Positions 6,048 to 32,976 of a stretch of 36,278 bases of DNA are shown one piece after another (the first letter of the stretch is position 1; each line of letters opens with the position of its first letter). Both the position numbers and the translations under genes were made by a program. A model generated the notes under the pieces. It was not told the DNA's origin, did not search any database, and saw only the letters and a list, made by a program, of their open reading frames with translations. Origin of the DNA: Candidatus Woesearchaeota archaeon (lineage in GTDB: Archaea; Nanobdellota; Nanobdellia; Woesearchaeales; CG1-02-33-12); contig JAFCCI010000008.1 of NCBI GenBank assembly GCA_017610275.1, positions 1 to 36,278 of the forward strand, given 5' to 3'.

Positions 6048-6878
6048 TTATTTTGTTTTGGCTAAATTTTCAATAACAGAAATAATTACAAGCCTTGCAT
6101 AGGCTATAAAAGGGAATATTAATATCATTCCAACAACAATCATAAGAGTTATGTTTATCATAAATAACAGCCTGAGCAGAACATCAATAAGAGCAAAATC
6201 TAAAATAAGCAAGAGATACATAGGGGCAATTGTTGAAAATTTTTTAATTCCAAAAGAAAATGATTTTTTTATTGAATCAATAAAGCCATGTTTTTTGATT
6301 AACACATATGATATAAATGCAAAATAGATAAGAATAATTAAAAAAATAAGAGAAAAAATTCTAACAGTTTCAAGATTTGATGATATCTTTAATACATCAG
6401 TAAAAATAAGTGCCCTTGCATAGAAATAAACGATTATCACAAAAGCAATATACCACAAAGTGTTTACTGCAAAGAATCTTTTTATGTATTCTAAATAATT
6501 TAATTTTTCTTTAAAGATTTTATGAGCAAAAAACCAGCTTGCTCCCTGAAAAATGCAGTACAATAGATATGTTAGAACTGCAAGACCACCTATCCAAAAG
6601 CCAATGCTGATAATAAGGGAGTTCATTTGCTGCTGATTAGATAAAATGTTTAAGCTAACATCAGTTTGTGTCAGGCCCTGAAATGCTTTCCCAGTTAGCA
6701 TAAGCAATGAAATTATCCTATCCATAATATTCTCAAAAAAGAAAGGATAAATAACAAAGAATACAAACAAAAAGAAAATATCAATAACAGACACAATAGC
6801 AAGATAAAAGGGATTTTTTCTTATAGCATTCAAGGAATCAGCAAAAGCTTTTATTAGAATGTTTTTTTTAAACTGCAT
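6048..6878 (-). CDS. Polytopic membrane protein, module copy 2 'C' gene
   Basis: 276 aa, multiple hydrophobic segments; shares FQG-x2-W...K.K...Y.K.F...N pattern with the 12565-13377 product. Confidence 0.65.
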   Translation of the reverse strand: MQFKKNILIKAFADSLNAIRKNPFYLAIVSVIDIFFLFVFFVIYPFFFENIMDRIISLLMLTGKAFQGLTQTDVSLNILSNQQQMNSLIISIGFWIGGLAVLTYLLYCIFQGASWFFAHKIFKEKLNYLEYIKRFFAVNTLWYIAFVIIVYFYARALIFTDVLKISSNLETVRIFSLIFLIILIYFAFISYVLIKKHGFIDSIKKSFSFGIKKFSTIAPMYLLLILDFALIDVLLRLLFMINITLMIVVGMILIFPFIAYARLVIISVIENLAKTK

Positions 6879-6886
6879 TTTTAAAA

Positions 6887-9800
6887 TTAATTTCCTTCCT
6901 CTTCAGGTTCTTCAGCTCTGCAATCTACAGTTATCTGGAAGTCTTTTGTTTTTATTCTCTTTCCGCAGCACTCGCCTTTCTGATCCCCTGTGCTCTTTGA
7001 ATGGAAAAGCTCAAACTGAACATGTGCTTTTTCTTCTCCTTCAATGCATCCTTCTTTCTCATTTTTTTCTTTTAAGACAATAACTGCTGCATCATCTTTT
7101 TTTGGCTCAGAATCAAGCTTAAGTTCAATGTTGTCGTATTTTATTATGCCTTTTTCTTCAGTATAATTATATTCCCTTTCACTAAGAGGCTCATTTTCTT
7201 TTATCTTCCATTCGCCATTCTTAGTTACTGAATAAACTTTATAATAATTATCTGTAGTGAATACTATTGCAAACTGCTTGTATTTTTCTGGACGCTCGAT
7301 AATAGTTAAATCAAGTTTTGGATTATCTCCTAATTTGTAGGTATCAATTGAATCCTCTGAACTGTCGCAGCAGATATTGTTTACACTAACTCTAGGAATT
7401 TCTCCTTCCCAGAGCTCATCCTTTGATAGCCTGATTTCCTCTTCTTTTATTTTTTTGTTTTCACTGTCTGTTATTGTCCATATTAGATATTTTGGTATTT
7501 GGTTGTCTGGTTCTGGACTCTCAACCTCTATCTGCACATCAAAGTTAATTATTTCACCTCTTGAATAAGAATCTTTAAGGCTTCTTCCACCAGATGGCTT
7601 AACACTTACAAATCTTGCTTCTCCATATTTTCCAATTATATAGCTGCATCTGAACTCTCCGCTTACAGAGTCAAGCTTGCAATCATCTGGTGCTCTCTCG
7701 CCAGCTTCTTCTATATTCTGAACTTTTCTTGTTGTCTGCATTTCACCTTTATTGTCTATCCAATCCCACTCAATAACTGCCTTATCATACCTTACAGGGG
7801 AGTCAACTACTTTTTCAAAGAACTCATCGTTAAACATCTCTCCTGCACTCAAGCTTCCTGATGCAATATTATATATTTCTTCCTTACCCCTGTAGAAACA
7901 GTCACATCTTCCTCCTGTGCATGAATTATCATTTGAGCATTTGAGATAAGAATTATAATTTAAATCTGCTCCTGCAATAATGCCAGCACCAATATGATAC
8001 ATATATGTTGTTCTTCCGTAATCAAGAGGATTAGAGCCAAGGAATCTTTTAGTTGTTGGATACAATAAGCCCTGGCTTCCCAATGTTGGCATACCAACCT
8101 CTGTACTTAACATGGTGTCAAGATCAAATTCTCCCCAATCTAATGTAAATGTAAACAAGCATATAGAGTGTATAAGTTTTCTTTCATTGAACATTGTGTT
8201 ATACATTCCTGTCTGTCCATATCTGTTTGATACAGAATCAAAAACATTTTTTCCACCAGTTGCTATTTGCTGTATAACTCCAAATGCTCCTGGCCTAATT
8301 TCTTCATCTGCCCCAAGCACAAGCGATCCTCCGGCGCATGCTATGGCATCATAAATCATATCACAAACATAAGTTGTCAGAACTGCTTTGCATACGCCAG
8401 AACTTCCCTCACCGGTTATCATTATGGTTTCAAAGCACTGCTTCACAGCTTCAAGAATTTGTTTCCACAGGTTAAGATAGCCAGAAACAGCAGGCAAGCA
8501 GACTGCCTGCACAGACCTTATAACATCTGATGTTGGGTCAAGGATGTAATTATCTGTTCCTTCAATACCTCTATTTGATTGAACTATTGAAGGTATTTTC
8601 TTTCCTTCCAACTCTCCACTAGTATAATATCCAGTTTCATTTATGTTTAATTTTGTATCATTAAAACATTTGTAAAAAATATCTTTTTCATTTTCTTTGC
8701 CTGTATATATGCCAAAATCTCCCTGAGTTCCTGATACTACTTCTGATTTATCACCTTTGCAAACACTTCCATCTGGGTAAACCAAATAAACAGTTTGTTT
8801 GTTTCCAGAGCCATCTGTTATAACAGTTACTTCCTGCTCTTTTGCTTTTTCGCAGAATGCAAGGCCTTCTGATATTTTATCAAAGAAGCTTTCTTCTCTT
8901 CCTCCTTCTTTTGCATTTGCCTTTTTCCACTCATCAATCATCCAGAATGCAGAATCCCAGGCACGTTTGTATTCTTCCTTACATTTATCTGATTTTTGAC
9001 CTTCTTTTTCACATAAATTTATCTCTTTCTTTGTTATGCTATCCTTGTATGTTTCAGTGTGATAATCAAGAGAAGGGACTGCAGGGCAGAATATCCTATC
9101 ACAAACATTATTCATCAATTTTTCAGTTTTTCTTAATGATTTTAATGATTGGAGGCAGGCATCACAATCAAACACTTTATCACCTTCATCTTGTTTAAAG
9201 CATGTATCTTCTCCGTCTATTAATGCCTGGACTGCTTCTGATCTCACACTAATACATGAGAATTCTGAAGCAATGGATTGCCCTAAATATGTTAATCCTA
9301 ATACCACACATCCGCCAAAAGCAATTTTACTGCCAAGATCAATTGGTTTTTTTATTGTATCAATAAGATTTATAGTAGAATTTAAAATATTTATTGTTGC
9401 ATTCAGCATTTTCTTTGGAATTTTATCAAGTGGAATCTCCTTGTCAATCATTATCTTAATATCCCAGCATTCTCTTTGCGTGTTTTCAACAATATCCCCA
9501 TTCATATTTTCATATTCATAGTATATATCAAGCCTCACTGGTATTTTTATAAGGCCAAAACTAAGGTTATTAAGCTCTTCTTTTGAATGAGGCCAGGCAT
9601 TAAGGTTTACAATAAAATAGCCTTTTGTATAATCATCATTCCAGTAGCTTGTTGCACCGCCTGCAAATAGTTCCTCCTGATATTTATCCCTTGATGATGA
9701 GCTTAAGCTATAGCTTGTAAGCTGGGGCTCGCTTGTTAAAATAACCTCATTAGGATCACCCCTCCCCTTATATGTAAGGTTAATTGGAAAGCTGAACTGC

Positions 9801-10603
9801 GCTATTCCCTGTATTAAATGCTCAGGTATTACAACATCTGGAGTTATCTTACCTATTTTTATATTCCAGTCAGAGCCATAGCCACAAAGAGTGTATATAA
9901 TAATATCTTCTATAGTTGAATTTCTTCCATAACCATCTGTTGCAGCTATTTTTATTGTATTTGGCCATTGATTTCCTTCCTGCGTTCCAACAGTTATGCT
10001 CTTATCTGTTACACCTATTTTAATACTTTTTTCTAATTTTATATCAATTTCAAAATTACCATCAGAATCAGATTTTCCAGAATATTTATTATTTTCATTA
10101 ACAAAAACATCTATATCTATGTTTGGCTTGTTAACCTGACCTTTGACTGTCTGCTTTGCTGTATATGCAGGGCTTAACTCATATAAATTATGATAAATTA
10201 TTTGAGGCAGCTCTGAGTCGCAGAAAACATCAAACTTATTTATAACTGAATTCCCGCCAGCATCAGTTGAATTAATTTTTATTTTGTTTTCCCCTTGATT
10301 CAGGCTTATGCCTATTGAAAAGGTGTTGTCCTCATTTGAACTTATTGTTCCATAATAATTAGAATTAAGGATAACCTCAATCATAATTGGCTCGTTTGTT
10401 GTTCCTTTAATATTCAATAAAATTTCAGTAACTTTTTCAGGGGGTTTTTCTATGTTTATTGATGGTGGAGTATTATCTACAATAATTCCCTTATCTTCAT
10501 TTTGTTCATCCTGTGCAAAAACCCTTGCAGTATAAACAGGCAGGCCTAATATAAGAAATATGCAGCTGATAGCTATTAATTTTAGTTTTATTTTTTTCAT
10601 CAT
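6887..10603 (-). CDS. Giant secreted Ig-like/Cys-rich protein, module copy 2 'B' gene
   Basis: ~1238 aa, signal peptide, 'IKGTTNEPIMIEVILN...GENKIKINSTDAGGN' Ig-like repeats, central Cys-rich part; ATG at 10603 preferred over TTG at 10615. Confidence 0.75.
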   Translation of the reverse strand: MMKKIKLKLIAISCIFLILGLPVYTARVFAQDEQNEDKGIIVDNTPPSINIEKPPEKVTEILLNIKGTTNEPIMIEVILNSNYYGTISSNEDNTFSIGISLNQGENKIKINSTDAGGNSVINKFDVFCDSELPQIIYHNLYELSPAYTAKQTVKGQVNKPNIDIDVFVNENNKYSGKSDSDGNFEIDIKLEKSIKIGVTDKSITVGTQEGNQWPNTIKIAATDGYGRNSTIEDIIIYTLCGYGSDWNIKIGKITPDVVIPEHLIQGIAQFSFPINLTYKGRGDPNEVILTSEPQLTSYSLSSSSRDKYQEELFAGGATSYWNDDYTKGYFIVNLNAWPHSKEELNNLSFGLIKIPVRLDIYYEYENMNGDIVENTQRECWDIKIMIDKEIPLDKIPKKMLNATINILNSTINLIDTIKKPIDLGSKIAFGGCVVLGLTYLGQSIASEFSCISVRSEAVQALIDGEDTCFKQDEGDKVFDCDACLQSLKSLRKTEKLMNNVCDRIFCPAVPSLDYHTETYKDSITKKEINLCEKEGQKSDKCKEEYKRAWDSAFWMIDEWKKANAKEGGREESFFDKISEGLAFCEKAKEQEVTVITDGSGNKQTVYLVYPDGSVCKGDKSEVVSGTQGDFGIYTGKENEKDIFYKCFNDTKLNINETGYYTSGELEGKKIPSIVQSNRGIEGTDNYILDPTSDVIRSVQAVCLPAVSGYLNLWKQILEAVKQCFETIMITGEGSSGVCKAVLTTYVCDMIYDAIACAGGSLVLGADEEIRPGAFGVIQQIATGGKNVFDSVSNRYGQTGMYNTMFNERKLIHSICLFTFTLDWGEFDLDTMLSTEVGMPTLGSQGLLYPTTKRFLGSNPLDYGRTTYMYHIGAGIIAGADLNYNSYLKCSNDNSCTGGRCDCFYRGKEEIYNIASGSLSAGEMFNDEFFEKVVDSPVRYDKAVIEWDWIDNKGEMQTTRKVQNIEEAGERAPDDCKLDSVSGEFRCSYIIGKYGEARFVSVKPSGGRSLKDSYSRGEIINFDVQIEVESPEPDNQIPKYLIWTITDSENKKIKEEEIRLSKDELWEGEIPRVSVNNICCDSSEDSIDTYKLGDNPKLDLTIIERPEKYKQFAIVFTTDNYYKVYSVTKNGEWKIKENEPLSEREYNYTEEKGIIKYDNIELKLDSEPKKDDAAVIVLKEKNEKEGCIEGEEKAHVQFELFHSKSTGDQKGECCGKRIKTKDFQITVDCRAEEPEEEGN

Positions 10604-10607
10604 AACA

Positions 10608-12509
10608 TCATTCAAATTTTGGCATTAAACTAATATTATTTGAGTTCTCATTTAAGAACTTTACCATATTCACTTTCTCATCATCTGTTTTAGCAACACC
10701 TCTGTCATAAGCATAAAATATTATCTCATCCTTACCCCTAATCTCATTGTAACTTAATTTCCAGTCTGCTTTAAACCCACCCGTAAGTTCATCGCCATTC
10801 ATAAGGAAAATTTCCAGATAATAACTATTATCATTATCAATAAGCTCTATTTCTTCCATCCCTTCCTCAGCAGGGTATGCTGCAAAGACATCATGGCTTT
10901 TATTTAATGATGTGATGTATATTGCTGCTTTTTCATTTGGCTCCAGACGTTCTTTATGTCTTGTGCTGTCGACTTTCATAACCCTAAAATCAAAGCTTTT
11001 CAATGAATCCATCATAACTAAAACATTCTTTTCCGTAACCTGCTGTTCTGCTCTTAAAAAGCCATCTTTCTCTGCTATTATAATCCCATTAACACATGCT
11101 GACGGCAGTTTGGTTTTTAATCTGAACCTGTTTGCCTCTGACTTTATAAAGCCTAAATTACATTGATACTTTATACAGTTAAATGAAATGCTTACATTAT
11201 TCAAGTCTTGATTTGTTCTTGAATCTTTTGCACTGATAATATAATCTTCTTCTGTTAATTCATTGCAGAACCCTGTATTCTGATAGCTGGTAAGTTTTGT
11301 TATTCCAAAGTCAGACCTGTCACCCTGGTTATGGTTAATTAAAACCGGAAATGCAAACCTGAAAACATATCCTTTGTTGTTAAATGACTTTTCATCCCTT
11401 ATTGCTATCTCAACAGGATAAATAATATCATATGTAAAATGGTACATATTTATGCAGAACATGCTGAGGTATTTTGGAGCTCCTTCAACCATATTAGACT
11501 TCATAAGATCTCCATCGCTTGGCCTTGCATATAACTCAAGACCCCAATTTTTCATATATCTTACTCCTGCTTTCAAATCATCAAAGTTTTCACTGACAGG
11601 TGCCCAGAAAAAGTGATTATATTCATAAATGTCCCCTGGTATGTCTTTTGGAATGGGGTCTTTGGTAATATCTAGTTTTTGGAATTTCCCGTATATCACT
11701 GGATCATATAAAAATGGAATATAATCTGTTTTGTCAATCCTTATCTTTGGAAGGTTATAGTATAATAATTCCTTGACAGACTGCTCAACATCTGCTTTAC
11801 TCCACTCAATCCCTTTGCATGAGAAAACCAAGTCTGTGAATGGGACTTCAGAATCAAGAGCCATTAGGTCAATAGTTGTTTTTTCAAAAAACATATCCTT
11901 ATTTTCTGCTTTCATTATCTCTTTTGCAAGCCTGTAGATTCTCTTAAGCCTTACTGGAACAGATGCTGTATATTCTGATAAGGTGGTTATTTTATCACCT
12001 TTTTTATCCTTAATAACTAATTGATAATCTGCTGTTATAATAACCTCTTCTTCTGCTATAACTGTCTTTGTTTTGATTTCTCCCTTTTCTTCTATAATAA
12101 ATTGATTGAAGTCAGAAAAATTTCTTAGGCAGGATTTAAGATTTTTTGAAACATAATCAGATATTTGGGATTGTATATCACTTAGTTTTGGTGAGGTATC
12201 TATTCCGTTAAGATACCAGTATGGCAGCTTGATTGGTCCTCCAACACTAATATAAGCCCCAGGATTCATGGCTATTTCTTCTGGTATTTCAACATACCCA
12301 GACTGCATTCCAAGCTTTATAACAGCTTTTTCGCCAATATCCTGCATACAGCTTTCAACATATCTTTTAACAGGAGCAACTTCCTGCGGAATAACAACAT
12401 CTGGAGTGAAAATAGTTGTTTTTACCCTTAGATAAAAAAAAAGCAAAAATCCTAGAATAACAAGAATTCCAACTATTACAAATACTGTTATCTGGCCTCT
12501 TTTTTTCAT
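10608..12509 (-). CDS. Membrane-anchored ectodomain protein with prepilin-like leader (KKRGQ-ITVFVIVGI), module copy 2 'A' gene
   Basis: 633 aa; SD gaggg upstream; homologous blocks with the 725-aa ORF at 18479-20596. Confidence 0.75.
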   Translation of the reverse strand: MKKRGQITVFVIVGILVILGFLLFFYLRVKTTIFTPDVVIPQEVAPVKRYVESCMQDIGEKAVIKLGMQSGYVEIPEEIAMNPGAYISVGGPIKLPYWYLNGIDTSPKLSDIQSQISDYVSKNLKSCLRNFSDFNQFIIEEKGEIKTKTVIAEEEVIITADYQLVIKDKKGDKITTLSEYTASVPVRLKRIYRLAKEIMKAENKDMFFEKTTIDLMALDSEVPFTDLVFSCKGIEWSKADVEQSVKELLYYNLPKIRIDKTDYIPFLYDPVIYGKFQKLDITKDPIPKDIPGDIYEYNHFFWAPVSENFDDLKAGVRYMKNWGLELYARPSDGDLMKSNMVEGAPKYLSMFCINMYHFTYDIIYPVEIAIRDEKSFNNKGYVFRFAFPVLINHNQGDRSDFGITKLTSYQNTGFCNELTEEDYIISAKDSRTNQDLNNVSISFNCIKYQCNLGFIKSEANRFRLKTKLPSACVNGIIIAEKDGFLRAEQQVTEKNVLVMMDSLKSFDFRVMKVDSTRHKERLEPNEKAAIYITSLNKSHDVFAAYPAEEGMEEIELIDNDNSYYLEIFLMNGDELTGGFKADWKLSYNEIRGKDEIIFYAYDRGVAKTDDEKVNMVKFLNENSNNISLMPKFE

Positions 12510-12539
12510 AATCCCTCTAAGAATACTCTATAATAAGGT

Positions 12540-12552
12540 ATATTTAAATCTT
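12540..12552 (-). promoter_or_regulatory. TATA-like element (minus strand atttaaatatacc) upstream of module copy 2
   Basis: A/T box about 30-40 nt before ATG 12509 in the 55-nt intergenic gap. Confidence 0.4.
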
Positions 12553-12564
12553 GCGGTGAGTTCT

Positions 12565-13377
12565 CTATGATTTTGCTATAACAGCTGCAATATAAAACCT
12601 TATCCATGCTGAGTAAAAAATCAGGAAAATCAATAAAAATAATGAGGTAATCCACTCTGGAAAAATGTTAAGAGGAATTGTAATTACAGACAGCAAAACA
12701 AGGACAAGGCTCATTATCAAGCAAGGAATGTATAATAAATGAATTTTTTTAACTGCAATGTTGAATGTATTTTTAAAAGAATATAATATTTTTTTCTTGT
12801 TTGTAAAATAAAAATATAGAATTGATATGAAATTAATTAGGTAAAGTAGGATTGGCAGGAAGACAAAAGTAAATAAAATCAATAATATAAGCATAACAAG
12901 GCTTTTGTTAAGTCCAGTAATTGAAAAAAATAAGAATATTGAATTAAAGAACCTAAGAAAGATTACTGCTATGAAAAACAGGATTATTGATATTGGAATA
13001 CAAGCCAGGTTTAACAACAGAAACTTCTTGAAATAATCTAAATCAAATTTCTTTTTAAGTATAGTAGTCCATATAAAACCCTGAAAAAAAGACCAGGTAA
13101 AAAATAAAAATATAATTAGAAGTATTAAGCATACTATTACCCCATAATAAAAGCTTTTGAGTGCAGCAAGATCATTTACAGCATTTTCAGTAAGGGTTGT
13201 TAAGTCTAACCCGCTTATTTTGGAAGCAGAGCTGTTTAACCACATACCACACAAAAAGAGTGCAATATATGAAACCAAAATAAAAAGAGAATCAAAAATT
13301 ATTACTGAAAAAAATCTCTTTTTGTCAAGCTTAAAGCTTTTTTTAAACAGGCTTATCTGGTTATTTAAGTATGCCAT
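12565..13377 (-). CDS. Polytopic membrane protein, module copy 1 'C' gene
   Basis: Hydrophobic segments; ATG at 13377 ('MAYLNNQISLFKKSF') abuts the upstream stop and is preferred over 13446. Confidence 0.65.
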   Translation of the reverse strand: MAYLNNQISLFKKSFKLDKKRFFSVIIFDSLFILVSYIALFLCGMWLNSSASKISGLDLTTLTENAVNDLAALKSFYYGVIVCLILLIIFLFFTWSFFQGFIWTTILKKKFDLDYFKKFLLLNLACIPISIILFFIAVIFLRFFNSIFLFFSITGLNKSLVMLILLILFTFVFLPILLYLINFISILYFYFTNKKKILYSFKNTFNIAVKKIHLLYIPCLIMSLVLVLLSVITIPLNIFPEWITSLFLLIFLIFYSAWIRFYIAAVIAKS

Positions 13378-13378
13378 T

Positions 13379-15451
13379 TTACCATCCCTGCTGGCCAGTT
13401 GATGTGCTGGAAACAGTTGTTGAGCTGGCTGGCTCAGAAATCTCACCTGGGCTTATATATGCCTCAACTATATTATTACATAGCTTATCATCCTTGAGCG
13501 AATTCCTGAATTCTGCATTTAAGTTTTCTGTATCGTAGAATTTGAGGCAAACCTTTTCATAAATTTCATCTTTGTATCTTACTATTGCATTCTCACCTGT
13601 TCCGCTGTAGCTTTCTCCAGGCTTGAGTTCTATTTTATCTGCTTTTCCGTCATTGTCAAGGTCAGCTTTGTTTCCATCTATCAACAGTTCAAATTCTATT
13701 TCCTCATCTTCATCTATCTGAGGATTGACTGCAAATGTTATCTTGTAAAAGTATATTGTTTGGTTGTTTGTTGTTATTTGCTTGCTTCTTTCTCCTTCAA
13801 CATGGGCTGCAAATCCCATCATATTGTTTACGTTTACAACAGCAACATTATTTGGGATATTGTCAATATGCTTGTGGCATATGCTCTCCTCCCATTTGCC
13901 GCTTATTATTCTTCCGATAACAGTCTGTGAGAAGAATTCATCGCTCTTTTTTCTCCATCCCATCATGAAGTCCCAGTCCAGCCAGCTATTCAATAGGTTT
14001 GAGAGTGCTATTCCTCTTCTGGCTGCCCTAACAGAATTATAAAATACATCTGCAAATGTCTGCGATGCATGCTCAATTATCTTCTTTTGCTCATAAGTTA
14101 AATCTTCTCCAGCTTTATTACCCAAAATCTTTAATATTTTTAATTCTTCATCAGTTAATCCTTCTTTTCCTTCTTCCTTGTATTTCTCAACCAGTTCATT
14201 CAACAAATTTTTTTCGTATTCTAACCGCAATTTGATTTTTTCCATTTCTTCTTGCTTTATCATAAAATCATCCTTGTATGATTCATATACCTCATTTATT
14301 ATAGGCTTTTTATTATCACTATCATAAAGAATTATCCTAATTTTGCCCTCACCTAAATCCTGAGTGTATAATTTCCAATCTATACCCCCATCTTCATTAA
14401 TTCCTATATCTACGGTGTACCAACCACCTTCGTTACTAACTGTAAAGGATATAGTTGTTTCATCTTCATCTTTTGTAATTGAAATATCCTTTCCATCAAC
14501 ACCAAGAACGTTTGTTATGTAATTATAAGATTCTTCACTTATTATTATTGGGTTTCCGTCATTGTCTTTTAAAGTTATAGTTTTCTCATCTTTGTTTTCA
14601 TCTATTACTTCAATTTTTGGTTGCACTCCACTTTCTTCATCTTCATCAGCAGTTCCTTTTTCTTCAATTGTTTCATCTCCTTCATCTTTTTTATTAATAA
14701 TTTTCTCTATATTTTTGTTAATGTTGTCTATTCTTTTCTGTTTTTCTTCTTCTGATAAGTAATGATCATCAATTGAATTAATATCCATTTCAATTTCTGC
14801 GGTTATACCAGCACCTGCACCACCATCTCCTTCTGCTGTGAATTCTCCATCACTAGTAACAGAACTTCCAAATTCTTGTTTTACACCCTCTGTTATATCT
14901 TTACCTGTTGATATTACTTCTACTTTTTTAATGAAATCATCATGATAATATTCTGTATAAACATCATTTGTGTAATCCCACTTTTTCTTTATATCACCAT
15001 TTTCATAATATTCAATACTATACCTTTCTTCTATCTCTCTTTTTGTTTGAGGAATAAAACCCCCTAACTCATATTTAGATACCTTTACAACCTGACCAGT
15101 TTCTATCATTTTTTCTTTATTTTCATTAAAGCTAAGTAAATATTCATATTCTTTATCAAGAGCATCATAAGTATTATAACGTAAAGAATAAGTATGACCA
15201 CCAGGAATTAATTCAACATCTTCTTTAACATTTATTTCTTTTGGATTCTTAATGATAATTAAATCATCTTTTAGAAGTTCATAGACTGTATTATCAAACT
15301 CTAATTCATAACCATTTGGATAAGTGATGGTATAATAATTATCGAAAGAACCTTCATTTTCGGTTATAACTGGTTCTTCAGGTACAACAGCAATGACAGA
15401 AACGACTAACGTAAATAAAACCAATAAAATCATGATTTTTGTTTTATTCAT
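13379..15451 (-). CDS. Secreted protein of unknown function with EF-hand-like DLDNDGKADKIEL motif
   Basis: Signal peptide 'MNKTKIMILLVLFTLVVSVIAVVPEEP'; start at 15451 gives a short overlap with the upstream gene; coiled/charged middle, C-terminal beta-rich part. Confidence 0.7.
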   Translation of the reverse strand: MNKTKIMILLVLFTLVVSVIAVVPEEPVITENEGSFDNYYTITYPNGYELEFDNTVYELLKDDLIIIKNPKEINVKEDVELIPGGHTYSLRYNTYDALDKEYEYLLSFNENKEKMIETGQVVKVSKYELGGFIPQTKREIEERYSIEYYENGDIKKKWDYTNDVYTEYYHDDFIKKVEVISTGKDITEGVKQEFGSSVTSDGEFTAEGDGGAGAGITAEIEMDINSIDDHYLSEEEKQKRIDNINKNIEKIINKKDEGDETIEEKGTADEDEESGVQPKIEVIDENKDEKTITLKDNDGNPIIISEESYNYITNVLGVDGKDISITKDEDETTISFTVSNEGGWYTVDIGINEDGGIDWKLYTQDLGEGKIRIILYDSDNKKPIINEVYESYKDDFMIKQEEMEKIKLRLEYEKNLLNELVEKYKEEGKEGLTDEELKILKILGNKAGEDLTYEQKKIIEHASQTFADVFYNSVRAARRGIALSNLLNSWLDWDFMMGWRKKSDEFFSQTVIGRIISGKWEESICHKHIDNIPNNVAVVNVNNMMGFAAHVEGERSKQITTNNQTIYFYKITFAVNPQIDEDEEIEFELLIDGNKADLDNDGKADKIELKPGESYSGTGENAIVRYKDEIYEKVCLKFYDTENLNAEFRNSLKDDKLCNNIVEAYISPGEISEPASSTTVSSTSTGQQGW

Positions 15452-18400
15452 TTTCACTTTCATCTTCTCCTTGGTTCTCGTCTTGAGTTGATTCATCTGT
15501 GTCTTCATCATCATTTGTATCTTCTTCTGTTGTTTCAGGCATTGGCTTTAGGGCTTCTTCGCAGACATCACCACTAAGACTCCAACTATCTGCATCAACA
15601 AATCCTACTATGTCTTCAGCAATAGATGCTAATGTCGGGACTAAATGACCAAGAATGCATCCTGCATGCAGTGCACCAGCTGGCTGCATATCACAGTAAA
15701 AGTTTATTCCTGCAAATATCATCCCAATTGGATCAGCAAATATTGTTTCAACATGCTCTGTCAGTCCCTTGAAAAATCCTGCAAATGGAATTATTTGGAA
15801 TATTTCTCCGTAAATGAACATGCATTCAAGATAAGCCTTCTGCTCTTCGCATACACTAAGCGAGATACCTTCAACAGCTGCGTTTTTAAGGCATAATATA
15901 TAATAACATTCAATCTGTCTTCTTTTTTGCAGGTTATGAACTATTCCAGGAAGGCATCCGGTCGCAAGGCTTAAAACCAAGCTATCCTTTGGATTCTGAG
16001 GCCAGAATTCTGCAACAAAACCACTATCACCCAAGGGCTTGCTTTGCTTTCCTATGATATTATTATACCAATCTCCCCACAATCCTTTTTCACATGAGAT
16101 ATATTTGCAAAGATTATATTGGCTATCCATAAATTTTTGATGCATATCATCGCTTTTTTTAACAAAGTCACTAATAGTCTCTGCAAAACCCCATCCAAAT
16201 ATAGTAGCCATACCTTCAATGTCTGCAAGGGCTTTGTTTACCTCTCCCCATGTTCCAAGAAGGCCACAAATCTTTTCAGCAATGCTTATCCACTTTTCAA
16301 GCTGCCCTATCCATTCCTGCTCTACAAGCCAGCTGTCCTGTGCATTCTCTATCTTGTCCTTAACACTTTGGCTTAGTTCTCCAAGTGGCATATTGTAGAA
16401 GTCTATTGTCACGTCAACAGGTTCTTCTTCTGTATTTTGTATTATTATATCCCCAACCCTTGATATAATTAATAAACTGCAGTTAAATGATAATGATACA
16501 TTTGGCATGCTTTCTTGTTTTAATGTTAAAACCATATAAGGATCATTAAATTTTTCATTTATTAGTTTATAATCATTAATATAATCCATATCTCCGCTGC
16601 ACTGCAAATCAAGAGCAAGAATAATTGGATTATCATAAACATCTATTGGTTTTAATTTAATGTGATAATATGTTTGGTGATTTATTAACTCAGTTGTCTG
16701 CCTGTCAATTGCCAGAGGCATTTTTTCAATATTACTAATTTCCCAGTAATTAGGATTTTCCTCAACACTTATTCCTAAAATTTTTATATTAAGATTTTTC
16801 TTAGCTTCATTGCCAACCAGGTCTGTAAATTTAAACTTTAAAATATTATTTATTGATTTTGGGGCAATTTCGCTTGTTGTCCATTCACAAATCCATTTTG
16901 TTCCATTTTGCGTGCACGTAGCTTTTTCATCCTTGCCTAAACCCAATGATAATAAATCAGCACTTGCTGTTACAGGTGTTTTGTCCGTAAGAACAGCTTT
17001 AATATGTAATATATCTCCTGATACTATTTCATCCTGAACATATGTTCTATTGTTCAAATTTGTAATCTCTATCTCACCCACCAAAATCGGGTTCTTGCTA
17101 TCAACAGCAAATGTTTCTGAAAGTACACTCTTATCAAGGTCAACATCATTTCCAGCATCATCTTCTGAATTAGGAAGAATAAAAACCCTTATAGATGATC
17201 CCTGTGCTTCATTAAAGATTAAATTATTCCAGAAGCAGTTCCAAACTTCACCACTTTTAGTGCAACTATTTGCCCTTATTTCTTTCCCACTTACTTTCAT
17301 CCAAAATTTTTTTAGGTTTAAACCAGATTCTTTTTCCTGAATTTCAGCAATAATATCACTTCCTTTTTTAATATATTTTATACCATCATATTCTACTTCC
17401 CCTGAACTTTTGATAGATTTAACTATTGGAGAAATAGTATCAACCTTAAAATCATAACTTACACTTTCTTCTGCAGTATTTCCAACAGCATCTGTTGCCT
17501 CAATCTTAATATTAATTTTGCCTGATTTATTAATTTTTATTAGTATATTAGACCATGTACATAATGAAACCCCCCCTTTGTTAACACAACTAGCTATCTT
17601 TCTTTTGTAGCTTGGTTCATCTTTATTTAGCTCTGATAAATCAGCCATAACATTATCTAAGGAATCATCTTCGACCTCTATGCTTATAATTGATTTTAAT
17701 GGCTTACTAAAGATATAATTTATATCATTACCATAAGAATCAATTATTTTGAATGAATTCTTATCAATATTTGGTTTAGTTTCATCAACAGTAAGTTTTT
17801 CACACCTAAATTCTGAAACCTGGTTTAGTTTATCATAAGCAGCTATACAAACATTAGCAGAGCCTGTTTCAGAAACAAATTCAGATGTTTTAAAGTCAAA
17901 CTCTCTTGAATCAATGGAGGAATCATTAATCTCTATTTCTTTAACAATAGTTGCTATATTATTCTTGCAGATGATTATCCTGCTTAACCCTAGACCATAG
18001 GTTGTATCATAAGCATAATCCTTTACACTATATTTTACAGTTAAATCCCCTTTTTTTGTTATCTTTGGGTTTATACTAAAGGATTCAATAGTTGGTGCCT
18101 TGCCATCAACAACAAACGTACTTGCATAAATATCAATAGTGTTACCAGAATCATTCTTTAATCTTATTATAAAGGAGTGTCTCTTTGGCTCTAATATGTT
18201 TTTACTGATTCCCAGGAAACATTGGGAGTAATTATCTTCAGACAATCTGCACGTATTAAATGCAATATCATTGAAAAAAATTTGCTCTGGAGTTACGCTT
18301 TCATTCCCAGAAATAGCAACATCTGCTTGGACATAAGTTAAATCACTTTCTTTTCTGTAACCTTCTACCTCATCATTGCCAAAGATTCCAACATTATTTA

Positions 18401-18482
18401 TCCCAGCAAAAACACTTGCACTATATACTGGAAGTGCAATTATCATGCATATTATAAACAATGCAGCTATCTTTTTCTTCAT
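15444..18482 (-). CDS. Giant secreted Ig-like/Cys-rich protein, module copy 1 'B' gene
   Basis: 1012 aa, signal peptide 'MKKKIAALFIICMIIALPVYSASVFA', repeated Ig-like units ('KINIKIEATDAVGNTAEESVSYDFKVDTISP'), Cys-rich C-terminal half; ATGA overlap with upstream gene. Confidence 0.78.
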   Translation of the reverse strand: MKKKIAALFIICMIIALPVYSASVFAGINNVGIFGNDEVEGYRKESDLTYVQADVAISGNESVTPEQIFFNDIAFNTCRLSEDNYSQCFLGISKNILEPKRHSFIIRLKNDSGNTIDIYASTFVVDGKAPTIESFSINPKITKKGDLTVKYSVKDYAYDTTYGLGLSRIIICKNNIATIVKEIEINDSSIDSREFDFKTSEFVSETGSANVCIAAYDKLNQVSEFRCEKLTVDETKPNIDKNSFKIIDSYGNDINYIFSKPLKSIISIEVEDDSLDNVMADLSELNKDEPSYKRKIASCVNKGGVSLCTWSNILIKINKSGKINIKIEATDAVGNTAEESVSYDFKVDTISPIVKSIKSSGEVEYDGIKYIKKGSDIIAEIQEKESGLNLKKFWMKVSGKEIRANSCTKSGEVWNCFWNNLIFNEAQGSSIRVFILPNSEDDAGNDVDLDKSVLSETFAVDSKNPILVGEIEITNLNNRTYVQDEIVSGDILHIKAVLTDKTPVTASADLLSLGLGKDEKATCTQNGTKWICEWTTSEIAPKSINNILKFKFTDLVGNEAKKNLNIKILGISVEENPNYWEISNIEKMPLAIDRQTTELINHQTYYHIKLKPIDVYDNPIILALDLQCSGDMDYINDYKLINEKFNDPYMVLTLKQESMPNVSLSFNCSLLIISRVGDIIIQNTEEEPVDVTIDFYNMPLGELSQSVKDKIENAQDSWLVEQEWIGQLEKWISIAEKICGLLGTWGEVNKALADIEGMATIFGWGFAETISDFVKKSDDMHQKFMDSQYNLCKYISCEKGLWGDWYNNIIGKQSKPLGDSGFVAEFWPQNPKDSLVLSLATGCLPGIVHNLQKRRQIECYYILCLKNAAVEGISLSVCEEQKAYLECMFIYGEIFQIIPFAGFFKGLTEHVETIFADPIGMIFAGINFYCDMQPAGALHAGCILGHLVPTLASIAEDIVGFVDADSWSLSGDVCEEALKPMPETTEEDTNDDEDTDESTQDENQGEDESENE

Positions 18483-20596
18483 TTTAACATTGGCTTTAGG
18501 CTTGTTCTGTAACTTTTTGAATATTCTTCTATTTTATTCATCTCATCCATATCATCATGCTTTCTTTCACTTTCTGAGATTCCAGGAATATCTATATACA
18601 GTGAATAAAATTCTATATTATTATAATTTGTTATATCTCCTGCATTCCAGGCAATGGTTTCATCAAATACTAGTCCGCCGGCAGGGAAAGGTTCTAACTC
18701 AATCTTAGGCAGGGTGGTTAATATTTTCTTTTCTTCTGGTATTACAACATTTTCATTTAAAATTAATTGGATATTTATTTTATATTTTCCAGGCACAATT
18801 CTTAGTTCAGATAATTCATTTTGACTGCCTGTGTATTCTGCTGCTGTTGAAAATTCTTCCTCTCCTTTTTTGCCAATTCTTTCAAGCATTATGATTGCCT
18901 GCTCATTGCTTGATAATCTTAAAGGAGTGTTGTCAAATGTCCATTTGCCATCACTTTTTATTATTTTTTTCTTCTTTACTTCAATGTTCTTGTATACAAA
19001 TGGCTCTAGTTTTGTTAATGGCAAATTAATGTCCTTATCAAGCTCTGTGCTTAAAAATTCTGAATATCCAAGGAAATCCGGCTTTGTAAAGGTGATTGTG
19101 CCTCCTGCGCAGATAGGGAACTTTGTTTCTAAGACAGCTTTATCATCTTTTATCTTTGTTTCTCCTATGAAACAGGATTCACTGCCACAACTGTAATATA
19201 CAATTACTCCTTCTAAATCCTGATTTGTTTGTGCATTTGCTGTTGTTATTTTTATATTGCCACTATTTCTTTTGTTAATGTCACAAAACATTGAGGTTTC
19301 ACCAGATTTCCCCTTTAATGATACAAATGATGAATTAATAGCCTCATTGTTTCTTATGTTTGCCTCAAGAGCAAATCTAAATGAATAACCTTTTCCATGA
19401 AATGCTTCAGGACTGTTTATTGTTATAACAACTGGATAGGATACATCATATAGGAAATTATACCTTTGTATGCCTATTCCTAATGGAAGAATATTTGTTG
19501 ATGCAGATTCAGGCATTATAATCCCTGATTTAGTATTAATGTTAAAATAGATTGGCCACCAGCCCAAATACCTGAAATCAACTCCTAATTTTTTGTATGA
19601 ATCTCCGTATGAGGGAATGTCCATCTGGCTGTAAACCCTCTGCTTTGTAGTGTCATCAAACATTCTTTTTTTATAGTTCAGGGTGTCTTCAACCTGAAGA
19701 AGAGGAACATAGCTCATAAGCATTCCTTCTAGTTTGGTCTTTACATCTGGCTTTGTCCAGTATACAGGGCTGCTTAACTCAAATTTAGAGCCAGCCATTG
19801 GAGGCAGTTTTTCATTATCTATTTCTGAGAACCCTGAAATCAGGTTAAGAGTGTTTAGTTCAAGAAAATGATAATTAATTTCATCACTTGTTACCATAAA
19901 TGCAAGCTCATAAACATTTTTTAGGTTTACAGGAATGGTTGTGAAGAAGTTAGATGCTTTTGACTTAATTTTTCCTTTTCTTATTTCAAGAGGATAATTG
20001 ATTGAAACAAGAACATTATCCTGCATTATGGTTGTTGTTGTGGTTATTTTTTCAAGTTCTATTACCTCAAATCCCTGGTCTTCAAAATCAATGAAATCAT
20101 TAAGGCATTCATTTAAGTTATAATTAATATACCTGTCTATCTGTGCTTCTATTGAAGAATCCATTGGTGAGCGTTCTGAACCTTTTTTCATCTCACTCTT
20201 TAAGTCAGGCATCTCTGATGAAAACTCGCAGTTTCCTGAGCAGTCATTACTGCTTTTCAAATACCACCAGTATGCAACATTCATCGAGCTTTCTGGAGAG
20301 AATTCAACTGCTTGTGAAGTTGTGGGATCAGACGTGTGGGTAATTCCAAATTCATTTAGGTTAGTATACCCGCCTGATTCCCCAATAAGAATTACTGCAT
20401 CTGTTGCTGTTTTGTCAATGCACTGCTCAATAAAAGTTTTTATAGGGTATAATTGTGTTGGTATTTCTTCAACTGTTGGTTCAACACCCCCTACTTTATT
20501 AGTCCTTGCTATAATATAGAAGGTTAAACCAGAAACAAGAAGAATAATAATTCCTATTATTATAAATAAGCTTACCTGCCCTCTTTTTCTCAACAT
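18479..20596 (-). CDS. Membrane-anchored ectodomain protein with prepilin-like leader (RKRGQ-VSLFIIIGI), module copy 1 'A' gene
   Basis: ORF track start 20656 lies upstream of the TATA box; ATG 20596 ('MLRKRGQVSLFIIIGIIILL') fits promoter and paralog. Confidence 0.77.
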   Translation of the reverse strand: MLRKRGQVSLFIIIGIIILLVSGLTFYIIARTNKVGGVEPTVEEIPTQLYPIKTFIEQCIDKTATDAVILIGESGGYTNLNEFGITHTSDPTTSQAVEFSPESSMNVAYWWYLKSSNDCSGNCEFSSEMPDLKSEMKKGSERSPMDSSIEAQIDRYINYNLNECLNDFIDFEDQGFEVIELEKITTTTTIMQDNVLVSINYPLEIRKGKIKSKASNFFTTIPVNLKNVYELAFMVTSDEINYHFLELNTLNLISGFSEIDNEKLPPMAGSKFELSSPVYWTKPDVKTKLEGMLMSYVPLLQVEDTLNYKKRMFDDTTKQRVYSQMDIPSYGDSYKKLGVDFRYLGWWPIYFNINTKSGIIMPESASTNILPLGIGIQRYNFLYDVSYPVVITINSPEAFHGKGYSFRFALEANIRNNEAINSSFVSLKGKSGETSMFCDINKRNSGNIKITTANAQTNQDLEGVIVYYSCGSESCFIGETKIKDDKAVLETKFPICAGGTITFTKPDFLGYSEFLSTELDKDINLPLTKLEPFVYKNIEVKKKKIIKSDGKWTFDNTPLRLSSNEQAIIMLERIGKKGEEEFSTAAEYTGSQNELSELRIVPGKYKINIQLILNENVVIPEEKKILTTLPKIELEPFPAGGLVFDETIAWNAGDITNYNNIEFYSLYIDIPGISESERKHDDMDEMNKIEEYSKSYRTSLKPMLK

Positions 20597-27466: not shown

Positions 27467-28927
27467 TTGGATAAAAACAAAGGAACAATAAAGATTGATT
27501 CATACAAACTCAATGTTAATGACATTGTAGTTAATGTAGATATCACATTGGGCAGGAATGAGTTTGTTCCACTATACAATGTATCCATCTTAAATATCAG
27601 CAAAATAACAAACATCATTTTGCATAAAATAAGAGAGGAGTTTGTCTCAAAGATTAATGTGGGGGATATAAAGATAAAAGATTCAAGCAGCCAAAATGCT
27701 ATTAAGGACAAATTTCAGAAAGAAATCCTTGTTTTAATAAAAAAATATTTTCCTGATGTTGACAAGAAAACATCTAACCTGCTCGTAAATTATTTAATAC
27801 AAGAAAACATAGGTCTTGGGAATGTTGAGCTATTATTGAGAGACAAAAATCTGGAAGATATAGTGATAAACAATGCTCACGATCCTGTCTGGGTTTATCA
27901 CCGCAAACACGGATGGCTTAAGACAAACGTAAAGATACAATCAGAGTCGAAGATAAGGCATTATTCAACAATGATAGGCCGTGATGTTGGGAAAGAGATA
28001 ACATTATTAAAGCCATTGATGGATGCCAGCCTGCCAAGCGGGGACAGGGTTAATGCTACATTAAGCCCAATCTCAACCATTGGCAATACCATATCCATAA
28101 GAAAATTTGCTGAAAAGCCATGGACAATAACTGATTTTATAAGGGAAAAAACCTTATCATATTATGCAGCCGCATTGATATGGCTTGCAGTTCAGAACGA
28201 ACTTTCAATCTTGATTACAGGCGGAACAGGCTCTGGAAAGACATCCATGCTTAATGTTGTTTCTAACTTTTTTCCGCCAAACCAGAGGATAATTTCCATT
28301 GAAGATACAAGAGAGCTAACCCTGCCAGATTCCCTGCATTGGGTCCCTCTGGAAACAAGATTGCCAAATCCAGAAGGCAAAGGTGAGGTTACTATGCTTG
28401 ACCTTCTTGTGAATTCGCTTAGAATGAGGCCAGATAAGATAATTGTTGGTGAGATAAGAAGAAAAAAAGAAGCAGAAGTGCTGTTTGAAGCAATGCATAC
28501 AGGACATTCTGTTTATGCTACACTGCATGCAAATAATGCAAGAGAAACTGTTGTAAGGATGACAAATCCGCCGATAGATATCCCCAAGCTTATGCTTACT
28601 GCTCTTTCATTAATAGTTGTGCAGCATCGTGACAGAAGAACTGGAAGAAGAAGGACATTGCAGATTGCAGAGGTATTGCCTAATGGTGATCCAAATGTTT
28701 TATTGCAGCTGGATGCACAGAAAGACCAGTTAAACCAAATAAACGAATCTCAGGTTCTTATGGAGACAATAAACCTTTATACCGGGCTTACACCTGATGA
28801 AATAAGGAAAGATATAAATGAGAAAATAAACATACTAAAATGGCTTGTTAAGAACAATATCACAAATATACACCAGATAGGATTGATATTTGCTAAGTAT
28901 TATATTAAAAAGCTAAGGCATAAATAA
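27467..28927 (+). CDS. Type II/IV secretion (archaeal T4P/VirB11-like) ATPase
   Basis: Walker A 'ITGGTGSGKTSMLNVV', Asp box 'IISIEDTREL', Walker B 'LRMRPDKIIVGEIR', His box 'AMHTGHSVYATLHANNARETV'; TTG start after SD aaaggtg. Confidence 0.95.
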   Translation: MDKNKGTIKIDSYKLNVNDIVVNVDITLGRNEFVPLYNVSILNISKITNIILHKIREEFVSKINVGDIKIKDSSSQNAIKDKFQKEILVLIKKYFPDVDKKTSNLLVNYLIQENIGLGNVELLLRDKNLEDIVINNAHDPVWVYHRKHGWLKTNVKIQSESKIRHYSTMIGRDVGKEITLLKPLMDASLPSGDRVNATLSPISTIGNTISIRKFAEKPWTITDFIREKTLSYYAAALIWLAVQNELSILITGGTGSGKTSMLNVVSNFFPPNQRIISIEDTRELTLPDSLHWVPLETRLPNPEGKGEVTMLDLLVNSLRMRPDKIIVGEIRRKKEAEVLFEAMHTGHSVYATLHANNARETVVRMTNPPIDIPKLMLTALSLIVVQHRDRRTGRRRTLQIAEVLPNGDPNVLLQLDAQKDQLNQINESQVLMETINLYTGLTPDEIRKDINEKINILKWLVKNNITNIHQIGLIFAKYYIKKLRHK

Positions 28928-28956
28928 AGGTGATATGAATTATTGATTTAGTTAAT

Positions 28957-29751
28957 ATGCTTGTTAGGAAGCTTCCTAAATTAAAGGAAGACATGATAGT
29001 TGCCCATATGAGGGAAACACCTAAGCAACTTGTAAAGAAAGCAATACTTTTCTCTTTTTCAGCTGCAATAGCTGTCACCTTTTTCACTTTTGTAATACTT
29101 GAAAAGCAGATGAGTTCTTTATCAATACTTCCCTTACTATTTATCCTTGTTTTGGTATTGGTATCTGTATTTATGCTTCAAACACCAAAAGTTTACATAA
29201 GAAGGAGGGAAAGGGAAATAAATAAGGAAATTTTGTTTGCAGGAAGATACCTCCTTGTTAAGCTTGAATCGGGGACTCCCTTATTTAATGCACTTATTGA
29301 TGCATCAAAGAGCTATGGTATTTCAGGCAAATACTTTAAGGAAATAGTTGATGACATAAACACAGGAACACCAATAGAAGAGGCACTTGAAAATGCAAGA
29401 AAATATAATGCGTCAAAAAATTTCAGGCTTATACTATGGCAGATAATAACATCTTTGAAAACAGGGGCAGAGGTAGCAGATTCTCTGAGAAAAACCCTAA
29501 GCCAGATAACACAGGAAGAAATAATAGAAATAAAAGAATATGGAAAAAAGCTGAATTCATTGGTTATGTTCTATATGATAGTTGCATGTGTAATCCCTTC
29601 ATTAGGAGTGACTATGATTGTAATTGTTTCAAGTTTTATGGACCTTGATATTAGCATGAGCCATCTTTTTATGGTTTTGTTCTTTTTGGCTATTATACAA
29701 TTTTTGTTTATATCATTAATTAAATCAGTAAGACCAATGGTGAACTTATGA
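28957..29751 (+). CDS. Type II secretion F-domain (TadC/GspF-like) platform protein
   Basis: 'GRYLLVKLESGTPLFNALIDASKSYG...IVDDINTGTPIEEALENARKYNASKNFRLILWQIITSLKTGAEVADSLRK' plus C-terminal TM helices. Confidence 0.88.
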   Translation: MLVRKLPKLKEDMIVAHMRETPKQLVKKAILFSFSAAIAVTFFTFVILEKQMSSLSILPLLFILVLVLVSVFMLQTPKVYIRRREREINKEILFAGRYLLVKLESGTPLFNALIDASKSYGISGKYFKEIVDDINTGTPIEEALENARKYNASKNFRLILWQIITSLKTGAEVADSLRKTLSQITQEEIIEIKEYGKKLNSLVMFYMIVACVIPSLGVTMIVIVSSFMDLDISMSHLFMVLFFLAIIQFLFISLIKSVRPMVNL

Positions 29752-30779
29752 AAATAATCTTTTTAGAGGAATTTGGAAAAGCAATCATTCCGGAAAAGCT
29801 TAGGCCAAAGATTAGAGAGTACCTTCTTAGGGCAGGTGTAACAGAGGTTCCATACAGATTATTTGGTGGTCTTTTTTATGGGTTCATATTATTGACAATC
29901 CTGTTGTTTTTCTTTTATGCTTACCCACTTCTTATTGAATCATTCTCTGGATTAAAACTTTTTATTCTTGCATTTGTTTCAGGTCTTGCTATAGCCTCAA
30001 GTATTGCTATTCTTACATTTGCTGTAATATATTTCTATTTGGATTTAAGAATTTTTAACAGGACAAAACAAATGGAAGAAATGCTGCCGGATTTCTTAAA
30101 GTTTGTTTCAGAGAACCTTAAAGGTGGGATGTCTTTTGAAAAGGCACTATGGTCTGCTATAAAGCCGGAGTTTGGAATACTTGCCACTGAGGTTAGGCTT
30201 GCTGCAAAAAAAGTCATGACAGGACAGGATGTTGATGATTCAATAACAGAATTTACAGACAAGTATGATTCTCCAATGCTGAGGAGGTCATTCAACCTTA
30301 TTATAGAAGGACTTAAGGGCGGAGGCCAGATAGCAGAACTTATTGACAGGGTTATTGAAAATATCACTGAGACAAGGATGCTGAAAAAAGAAATGGCTGC
30401 CACAAACATGACTTATGTGATATTCATTACATTTGTTGTGATAGTGATTGCACCCGGATTGTTTGCACTTTCATACCAGTTGCTTATTATCTTAGGAAGT
30501 TTTATCTCTAAGATTGGAACTACCCAAATAAGCGGCGGAATGAATCTCCCATTAACTATCTCAAGCATATCAATAAAGCAGTCAGACTTTGTGGTCTTTT
30601 CAAGATATGCTCTTGTTATAATATCCACATTTTCATCTATGATAGTTTCAATGATAAGGAGGGGAAGCATCAAAGCAGGAGTTGCATATATTCCTATATT
30701 TATTGCATCATCACTTTTGCTTCACTTTTTGTTTATGATGGTACTGACAAAGATATTTGGCGGTTTAATAGCAATTTAA
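29748..30779 (+). CDS. Type II secretion F-domain (TadC/GspF-like) platform protein
   Basis: 'EMLPDFLKFVSENLKGGMSFEKALWSAIKPEFGILATEVRLAAKKVMTGQDVDDSITEFTDKYDSPMLRRSFNLIIEGLKGGGQIAELI'; ATGA overlap with preceding gene. Confidence 0.9.
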   Translation: MKIIFLEEFGKAIIPEKLRPKIREYLLRAGVTEVPYRLFGGLFYGFILLTILLFFFYAYPLLIESFSGLKLFILAFVSGLAIASSIAILTFAVIYFYLDLRIFNRTKQMEEMLPDFLKFVSENLKGGMSFEKALWSAIKPEFGILATEVRLAAKKVMTGQDVDDSITEFTDKYDSPMLRRSFNLIIEGLKGGGQIAELIDRVIENITETRMLKKEMAATNMTYVIFITFVVIVIAPGLFALSYQLLIILGSFISKIGTTQISGGMNLPLTISSISIKQSDFVVFSRYALVIISTFSSMIVSMIRRGSIKAGVAYIPIFIASSLLLHFLFMMVLTKIFGGLIAI

Positions 30780-30799
30780 TTAACTAAAAAAACGAAAGA

Positions 30800-30860
30800 T
30801 TTATATAAAAGCAGGAGTATAATCCAATATAATTATATTTTATTAATAAAAAAGGAGGAG
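30800..30860 (+). promoter_or_regulatory. TATA box (tttatataaaa) and SD (ggaggag) for the major pilin candidate
   Basis: 30800-30810 TATA; 30854-30860 SD before ATG 30866. Confidence 0.6.
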
Positions 30861-30865
30861 ATAAA

Positions 30866-31402
30866 ATGGTTATGAAAAAAAAGGCACAGGCTGCCATGGA
30901 ATTCTTGATGACTTATGGATGGGCAATCCTAGTTGTTCTGGTTGTTATTGGTGCATTAGCATATTTTGGTGTTTTAAATCCGGAAAATCTTTTGCCAGAG
31001 AAATGCACACTCCCAATGGGATTATATTGTAAAGAACATGCTGTAAGAACAGGTTCTCCTGGTTCCATAAACTTCATTGTTGAGAATGGTATGGGAAGCG
31101 GAGTCATCTTTCGTAATATAAGTGTTACTGGAGACGTATTTGATGATGCAAATTGTAACTTAGATGCTGCTGGGTTAGGTAGTTTACCATATAGTGAAAG
31201 CCCATACAATAGTGTTGCAGGATTACATATTGGAAATGGTGATAGCAAAACTATAACAATTGCATGTGATATTGGTACATGGAGTGGTAAGACCAAAGGC
31301 AACATAAAAATAACTTACTGTTCTGACACTCTTGGAGATTCAACTAAATGTGATACTTTCTCTCGCCCATTAGAAGGGGAATTAATGACCGTTGTTCAAT
31401 AA
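30866..31402 (+). CDS. Type IV pilin-like protein (class III signal peptide), candidate major pilin
   Basis: 'MVMKKKAQAAMEFLMTYGWAILVVLVVIGALAYFG'; E at +5 of predicted mature protein. Confidence 0.85.
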   Translation: MVMKKKAQAAMEFLMTYGWAILVVLVVIGALAYFGVLNPENLLPEKCTLPMGLYCKEHAVRTGSPGSINFIVENGMGSGVIFRNISVTGDVFDDANCNLDAAGLGSLPYSESPYNSVAGLHIGNGDSKTITIACDIGTWSGKTKGNIKITYCSDTLGDSTKCDTFSRPLEGELMTVVQ

Positions 31403-31552
31403 TTCTCTTACTTTTTTAATTTAATTCTTTTTTATTTATGATATTTTTCTTAATTTATTTTACTTATTATATCTCCTTATTATACTTCAGTAGAAGTGTA
31501 AGATTATACTAATCTAAATTTAGTTAAAATTACTTTTAAGTAGGCACAAAGC

Positions 31553-31565
31553 TTTTATATATTTA
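31553..31565 (+). promoter_or_regulatory. TATA box for the second pilin-like gene set
   Basis: ttttatatattta ~25-30 nt before ATG 31587. Confidence 0.5.
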
Positions 31566-31586
31566 AACAGGATTTTCTAGATAATA

Positions 31587-32045
31587 ATGGCAATGATGAG
31601 AAAAGCACAGGCATCAATGGAATACCTGCTTGTAGCAGGGCTGATAACACTTGTAATTCTTCCTTCAATATATATTTTTTACAGTTACTCACATAAGTCA
31701 AATGAAGAAATAGCACAAGGAATGGTTAACAGGTTTGGAACACAAATAATTGATGCTGCAGAAGAGGTTTATTATCTTGGGGGTCCATCAAAAACAACCC
31801 TTGATTTAACAATGCCTAATGGTGTTATGAATATGGAAATATGGTGTAACCAGGAGATTGTATTTTTTTTAGCTGATGGTTCAGAACTTGGATTCAAGTC
31901 AAGAGTGAACATAACTACAAATATAACTGCTGGTGATGCTAGCGGCAGATGCTGTTATAATTTCACAAAAAGAGATTATTCCCCTGGACTAAAACATGTG
32001 ATAGTTGAGGCAAATGGAGATAATGTATTAGTTAGAATTGAATAG
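31587..32045 (+). CDS. Pilin-like protein (class III signal peptide)
   Basis: 'MMRKAQASMEYLLVAGLITLVILPSIYIFYSYS'. Confidence 0.8.
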   Translation: MAMMRKAQASMEYLLVAGLITLVILPSIYIFYSYSHKSNEEIAQGMVNRFGTQIIDAAEEVYYLGGPSKTTLDLTMPNGVMNMEIWCNQEIVFFLADGSELGFKSRVNITTNITAGDASGRCCYNFTKRDYSPGLKHVIVEANGDNVLVRIE

Positions 32046-32053
32046 GTATCAAT

Positions 32054-32482: not shown

Positions 32483-32497
32483 AAAGAGGTAATTTAA

Positions 32498-32899: not shown

Positions 32900-32914
32900 T
32901 AGCCAAAGCTTATA

Positions 32915-32956
32915 GGACTTTTCTTTAGTCCGGTACAAGTAAATTTCTCTCTTGTA
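32915..32956. other. Two adjacent small hairpins in a pilin-cluster intergenic region
   Basis: ggact-7nt-agtcc (32915-32931) and tacaag-11nt-cttgta (32934-32956). Confidence 0.35.
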
Positions 32957-32976
32957 ACTCTTAAATTAATAAAATA

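Follow-up and report, generated by a model that had tools for sequence, protein, structure and literature searches.

Organization of the locus

Beside a type IV pilus locus, the genome of an uncultured archaeon, Candidatus Woesearchaeota archaeon (assembly GCA_017610275.1), carries a run of large surface-protein genes. The window analyzed here (36,278 nucleotides) is one contig, JAFCCI010000008.1, of a 961-kb assembly comprising 83 contigs and 76% complete. The nearest named relatives of this genome are Woesearchaeota MAGs, e.g., CG10_big_fil_rev_8_21_14_0_10_33_12. The first-pass annotation, made from the letters alone, described two diverged tandem copies of one gene module, and an ORF check found the seven genes where it had placed them and in the same order, A1-B1-X-C1-A2-B2-C2. 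They form a tight operon on the minus strand (20596-6048), with intergenic gaps or overlaps of at most 10 nt, except for the 55 nt separating C1 and A2. The starts of A1 (ATG at 20596), X (ATG at 15451), and C1 (ATG at 13377) were revised according to leaders and orthologs.

A1 (18479..20596; minus strand, as are all seven genes) encodes a large protein of about 705 aa, counted from the ATG at 20596, with the prepilin-type leader MLRKRG/QVSLF (the slash marks the expected cut). B1 (15444..18482) has a Sec-type leader, Ig-like domains, 25 cysteines, and a "CLPG" module at aa 830-891. The secreted protein X (13379..15451) carries a conserved C-terminal domain at about aa 510-670 of its 711-aa ORF and three invariant cysteines, and C1 (12565..13377) is a polytopic membrane protein with about six hydrophobic segments. 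The 633-aa A2 (10608..12509) has the leader MKKRG/QITVF and, in the predicted structure, a helical/beta N-terminal half and an Ig/CnaB-like C-terminal half. B2 (6887..10615) combines a Sec-type leader, Ig-like domains, 34 cysteines, a CLPG module at aa 689-755, and a conserved beta-sandwich at about aa 850-1010, while C2 (6048..6878) encodes a polytopic homolog of C1. Each C protein has roughly five or six hydrophobic segments; the only one in B and X is that of the leader. Invariant cysteines are numerous in the ortholog alignments of both B1 and B2. The neighboring pilus locus (27467..34506, plus strand) encodes a FlaI/TadA-like ATPase, two TadC-like platform proteins, and pilins with KKAQ leaders; it does not belong to the conserved block.

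Two other genes of the window deserve mention. The frame of metG (20666-22945), located upstream of A1, is disrupted near its start, apparently by a short tandem duplication; this may be an assembly error, and a relative in another locus (L164) is intact. A 526-aa protein (23692-25272) with one internal transmembrane segment, a Cys-rich exterior, and no assigned family stays near metG and A1 within the window's family.

Two ancient copies of one gene set

The relatedness of the two halves, proposed from alignment by eye, was examined by pairwise and profile comparisons. A1 and A2 are homologous both by BLASTP (177 bits, 1e-51, 26% over 620 aa) and by hhalign of their ortholog profiles (100%, 1e-92). 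The C proteins proved homologous as well: although pairwise comparison of C1 and C2 gave just 4e-4, their ortholog profiles align over about 250 columns, i.e., the full length (99.5%, 7.5e-23). For B1 and B2, pairwise similarity is confined to the leader, and profiles add the Ig regions and a common 66-column Cys module, NP...S...CLPG....L...R.I.C....C (B1 830-891, B2 689-755; 97.7%, 1.4e-12); the B2 profile also independently picks up B1 genes of other genomes, weakly (about 1e-5). The notion of B1 and B2 as diverged copies therefore stands for the leader, the Ig domains, and the CLPG module, to which their relatedness, as judged by profiles, is restricted. X has no relative detectable by profile comparison among the other block proteins. 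Since all three pairs match by profile, the A-B-C duplication is real, and the block is, on this sequence evidence, two ancient copies of one anchor/partner/membrane-protein set with an unpaired X. In a tree of 57 A proteins, A1 and A2 were fully separate (A1 clade support 1.0), and the duplication therefore predates the families sampled.

Distribution and synteny

The block is near-universal in the order, with an almost unchanged gene order, and is not a local feature. The A1 profile matched 125 of the 147 genomes sampled from the order, the A2 query found matches in 57 of 61 relatives, and the A-family profile covered 151 of the 237 class genomes. The B2 domain profile was found in 91 of the 149 genomes of a phylum sample, and its matches adjoin A where genomes were compared by eye. 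Synteny was followed in the window and in 80 named contigs, giving 81 loci. The gene directly 3' of A2 was B2 in 70 of 79 testable loci, B1 directly followed A1 in 24 of 30, C1 directly followed X in 35 of 39, and C1 directly preceded A2 in 45 of 72. The six-gene order A1-B1-X-C1-A2-B2 was present in 18 loci and the full seven in 13, many others being cut by contig ends. In more distant class members, A2 is retained and followed by a gene for a large secreted protein; three of those examined also have C2. The genes flanking the block differ family by family. Dozens of families share this string of genes, far beyond what chance arrangement could produce. This survey of relatives shows that the A-B-C linkage is conserved and lends support to the earlier suggestion that the parts are co-expressed.

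One contig titled as an Aminicenantes bacterium (L064) bears a Woesearchaeal operon and was probably mis-binned or mis-titled.

Domains, folds, and known systems

The block had not been recognized as a named system, and none emerged from the searches of Pfam, NCBIfam, PADLOC, and PDB (by sequence and by fold), which returned generic Ig/CnaB-type sandwiches only. A and C had no matches in Pfam, NCBIfam, or PADLOC, and in the same databases B yielded Ig-like domains only and no known adhesin domain besides Ig-like folds. Weak sequence-profile matches to PDB entries (coiled coils, designed helices) were discarded. The A2 model, built on a 71-row alignment (mean pLDDT 90.5), starts with an N-terminal helix, then has a helical/three-strand region, and continues into Ig/CnaB-like sandwiches. 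Its best Foldseek matches were two Lactobacillus rhamnosus proteins, the pilus adhesin SpaC and the shaft pilin SpaA; TM-scores were low, and the predicted resemblance is one of generic domains. No pilin fold was present among PDB matches of this model, in which one could be masked by additional domains of about 600 residues. The model of B2 aa 395-1032 (pLDDT 79.7) comprises a Cys-rich helical part, without a solved relative in the fold search, and a beta-sandwich; PDB and BFVD gave generic beta-sandwiches only. Thus, Foldseek matched neither of the two models to a characterized system, and the main anchor protein A is, as far as these searches indicate, a match to no described family or system.

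The seven-gene block was also not found described in the open literature, although subscription papers and supplements may mention it. The predicted arCOG01314/arCOG02487 secretion system (Makarova 2015, PMC5898192) likewise combines Ig-domain surface proteins with membrane proteins, but the block lacks its MoxR ATPase, vWA, and flavodoxin-like protein in Pfam/NCBIfam scans; arCOG02487/NEQ255, followed in the literature, appears to belong to a different predicted system. Archaeal type IV pilus loci with uncharacterized DPANN pilins (PMC4858521; PMC6393860 Fig. 2A) are likewise DPANN pilus loci with fast-evolving secreted genes, whereas the A-B-X-C-A-B-C arrangement is not described in the accessible parts of these papers, and the block recurs without pilus genes.

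The leader of A proteins

Leaders were defined as [KR][GAS]Q plus a subsequent stretch of 16 or more uncharged residues, with the cut expected before Q ([KR][GAS]/Q). This prepilin-type pattern was present in 121 of 124 A proteins having an N-terminal hydrophobic segment versus 1 of the 130 unlabelled proteins with such a segment encoded in these loci, and was absent from all B, X, and C proteins of the loci scanned. With its basic residue, G/A before Q, and hydrophobic helix, it resembles the leaders of type IV class III pilins and, given established knowledge of archaeal prepilins, we take it to be a class III prepilin-type site. In the alignment of 71 A2 sequences, position +1 was Q in all 71 and position -1 was G, A, or S. 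Glu at +5 is typical of most filament-forming pilins, but in A2 this position was F in 68 of the 71 sequences, Y in two, and L in one.

The leader pattern suggests that A proteins are processed by a prepilin peptidase. The A24 prepilin peptidase (PF01478) is encoded in 226 of 237 genomes of the class, including four (G032, G219, G227, and G027) that keep A and have no ortholog of the window-type pilus ATPase at 1e-75; it had no match in the 76% complete assembly containing the window. Being near-universal, PF01478 was uninformative about co-occurrence with A and was dropped as such a test.

Relation to pilus machines

Operons of a minor pilin and a PilY1-type tip adhesin also have a prepilin-leader gene just before a large gene for a Sec-secreted Cys-rich protein. 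By analogy, A could be a true minor pilin in filaments of the neighboring FlaI/TadC pilus, with B as a PilX/PilY1-like tip adhesin. The leader of A agrees with this, as does the position of the pilus ATPase beside A1 in three families (f1, f4, and f42) among the places listed, a count in which contig breaks may hide further neighbors. Similar genes lie between the ATPase and A1 in f1 and f4, and one f42 genome (G049) has the same pilus operon (TPR/HTH, ATPase, two TadC, pilins) immediately next to B1-A1 in divergent orientation. In the rest of the 147 genomes, the listed pilus and A1 places were on different contigs or separated by more than 20 kb, and a general linkage of the block to the pilus locus was rejected.

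Moreover, A1 was kept in about 18 of the 20 genomes listed without a close ortholog of the window's pilus ATPase (E<=1e-75). Several of these are 95%-100% complete, and three (G032, G219, and G027) have a completeness rating of 100%. When 18 genomes without the close ATPase were checked for T2SSF, 13 had no match, three had only weak matches to 720-746-aa proteins, and two (G046 and G325) contained a platform gene, accompanied in G325 by a more distant ATPase. Since adjacency is limited to three families and A1 is kept without the ATPase ortholog, the adjacent pilus machine is not generally required, which leaves the earlier idea of joint work with it weak. A also differs from the minor pilins in its far larger size, F at +5, and the lack of a pilin fold among the A2 matches, and B from PilY1 in having Ig-like domains only in Pfam/NCBIfam, with no beta-propeller or vWA domain. 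We regard the minor-pilin interpretation as unlikely.

Another machine may be considered. All six genomes examined encode a divergent ATPase of the FlaI type, about 760 aa long, and, next to it or close by, a TadC-like protein of 712-760 aa (the latter is cut by a contig end in G227). This pair sits with small helical proteins, apart from the operon. In the window's own genome, a different contig (C53, 4570-12230; locus L168) encodes a 762-aa FlaI/TadA-like ATPase, a 722-aa TadC-like protein, two helical proteins, and three tandem polytopic proteins of about 190 aa; similar clusters occur in five other genomes, some without the window-type pilus. The divergent pair is a possible partner machine of A. 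It is a more speculative and rather improbable proposal that the A family represents the missing pilin-like subunits of the pair of about 760-aa FlaI-like ATPase and 730-aa TadC-like protein, together making up a lineage-specific contact machine that displays paired disulfide-rich adhesins. Nanoarchaeal pilus ATPases without identified pilins are noted by Makarova 2016 (PMC4858521).

Short A paralogs and SLT proteins

Short members of the A family occur outside the operon. On contig C48 of the window's genome (L126, 5497-13313), short A genes (244 aa, and a broken copy of 139+127 aa) are followed by genes for three secreted proteins whose C-termini resemble SLT (best Pfam 6.7e-6), a pairing that recurs within the window's family. 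In other families, short A genes precede genes for different secreted proteins, one with LysM. Since short A paralogs usually precede secreted-protein genes, an A-type anchor followed by its Sec-secreted partner looks like a general rule at the level of gene order. In G020 (L151, 2927-5791), a short A gene is followed by one for a protein with a C25 peptidase domain (8e-7), and L126 also contains a gyrA-like gene (550-4278), apparently with an intein-like insertion.

SLT proteins of Woese- and Pacearchaeota have been proposed to act in attachment to bacterial walls, according to Castelle et al. 2021 (PMC8204110), and some short-A partners could act on such walls in line with this. The operon might then be a dedicated secretion or host-attack apparatus in which A anchors export wall-acting proteins or hold them at the surface, and the SLT and LysM neighbors of short A genes speak for it. 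The Module 98/fam00969 SLT proteins of that source come from the same lineages and are large extracellular proteins without an assigned role. In contrast, no SLT or other enzyme domain was found in A1, B1, X, A2, B2, or the tested orthologs; SLT was found only beside short A paralogs, and in other families SLT proteins were mostly not beside A among the places listed. B was accordingly rejected as a carrier of the SLT domain, and we consider the host-attack role quite unlikely.

Possible function of the operon

We tentatively prefer, at somewhat less than an even chance, a reading of the operon as two surface complexes in which pilin-like A anchors display Sec-secreted disulfide-rich B and X partners, with C in the membrane. 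A would be made with the observed class III leader, which the A24 peptidase presumably cleaves after G/A/S, just before Q, and the helix after the leader would hold A in the membrane with about 600 residues outside. B, the exported disulfide-rich Ig-domain product of the next gene, could be captured and displayed by A, as the observed synteny suggests; C would serve as a partner in the membrane and X as an additional secreted partner. The A/B pair would thus resemble a minor pilin and its tip adhesin, presenting adhesins to surfaces or host cells, generally independently of the pilus ATPase beside the block. We prefer this reading because it accounts for the leader, the constant adjacency of A and B, the disulfide-rich secreted partners, and the lack of dependence on one pilus ATPase. 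It is also favored by the A24 peptidase of genomes that keep A but lack the window-type ATPase ortholog, the numerous invariant cysteines of B1 and B2, the SpaC-like Ig/CnaB folds of A2, and the secreted-protein genes that usually follow short A paralogs. Points against it are Phe instead of Glu at +5, PDB matches of A2 without a pilin fold, the limitation of B to Ig-like folds with no known adhesin domain, and the missing A24 match in the 76% complete genome of the window.

The operon could instead build or anchor the envelope, as an S-layer-like lattice or assembly with A as a membrane stalk and B and X as lattice or cross-linking proteins. The near-universal A1, the large Ig/Cys-rich secreted proteins, polytopic C, and independence from the pilus ATPase would fit such a role, but the strong sequence divergence is more typical of contact proteins, and nothing points to abundance or a lattice. 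S-layer proteins seldom have prepilin-type leaders, and the leader of A also argues against this alternative, which we judge doubtful.

Of the envelope-spanning adhesin or secretion assembly proposed by the first-pass annotation, the surface assembly is upheld by synteny, leaders, and Cys-rich secreted domains, and the link to the neighboring pilus is the weak part. Display by A anchors remains our preferred reading, and the block probably helps cells touch their surroundings or hosts. It represents a near-universal unnamed surface operon of widespread uncultured archaea, and it supplies concrete genes to localize, express, and solve. A also offers a testable candidate for the pilins that, according to PMC4858521, are missing next to nanoarchaeal pilus ATPases.
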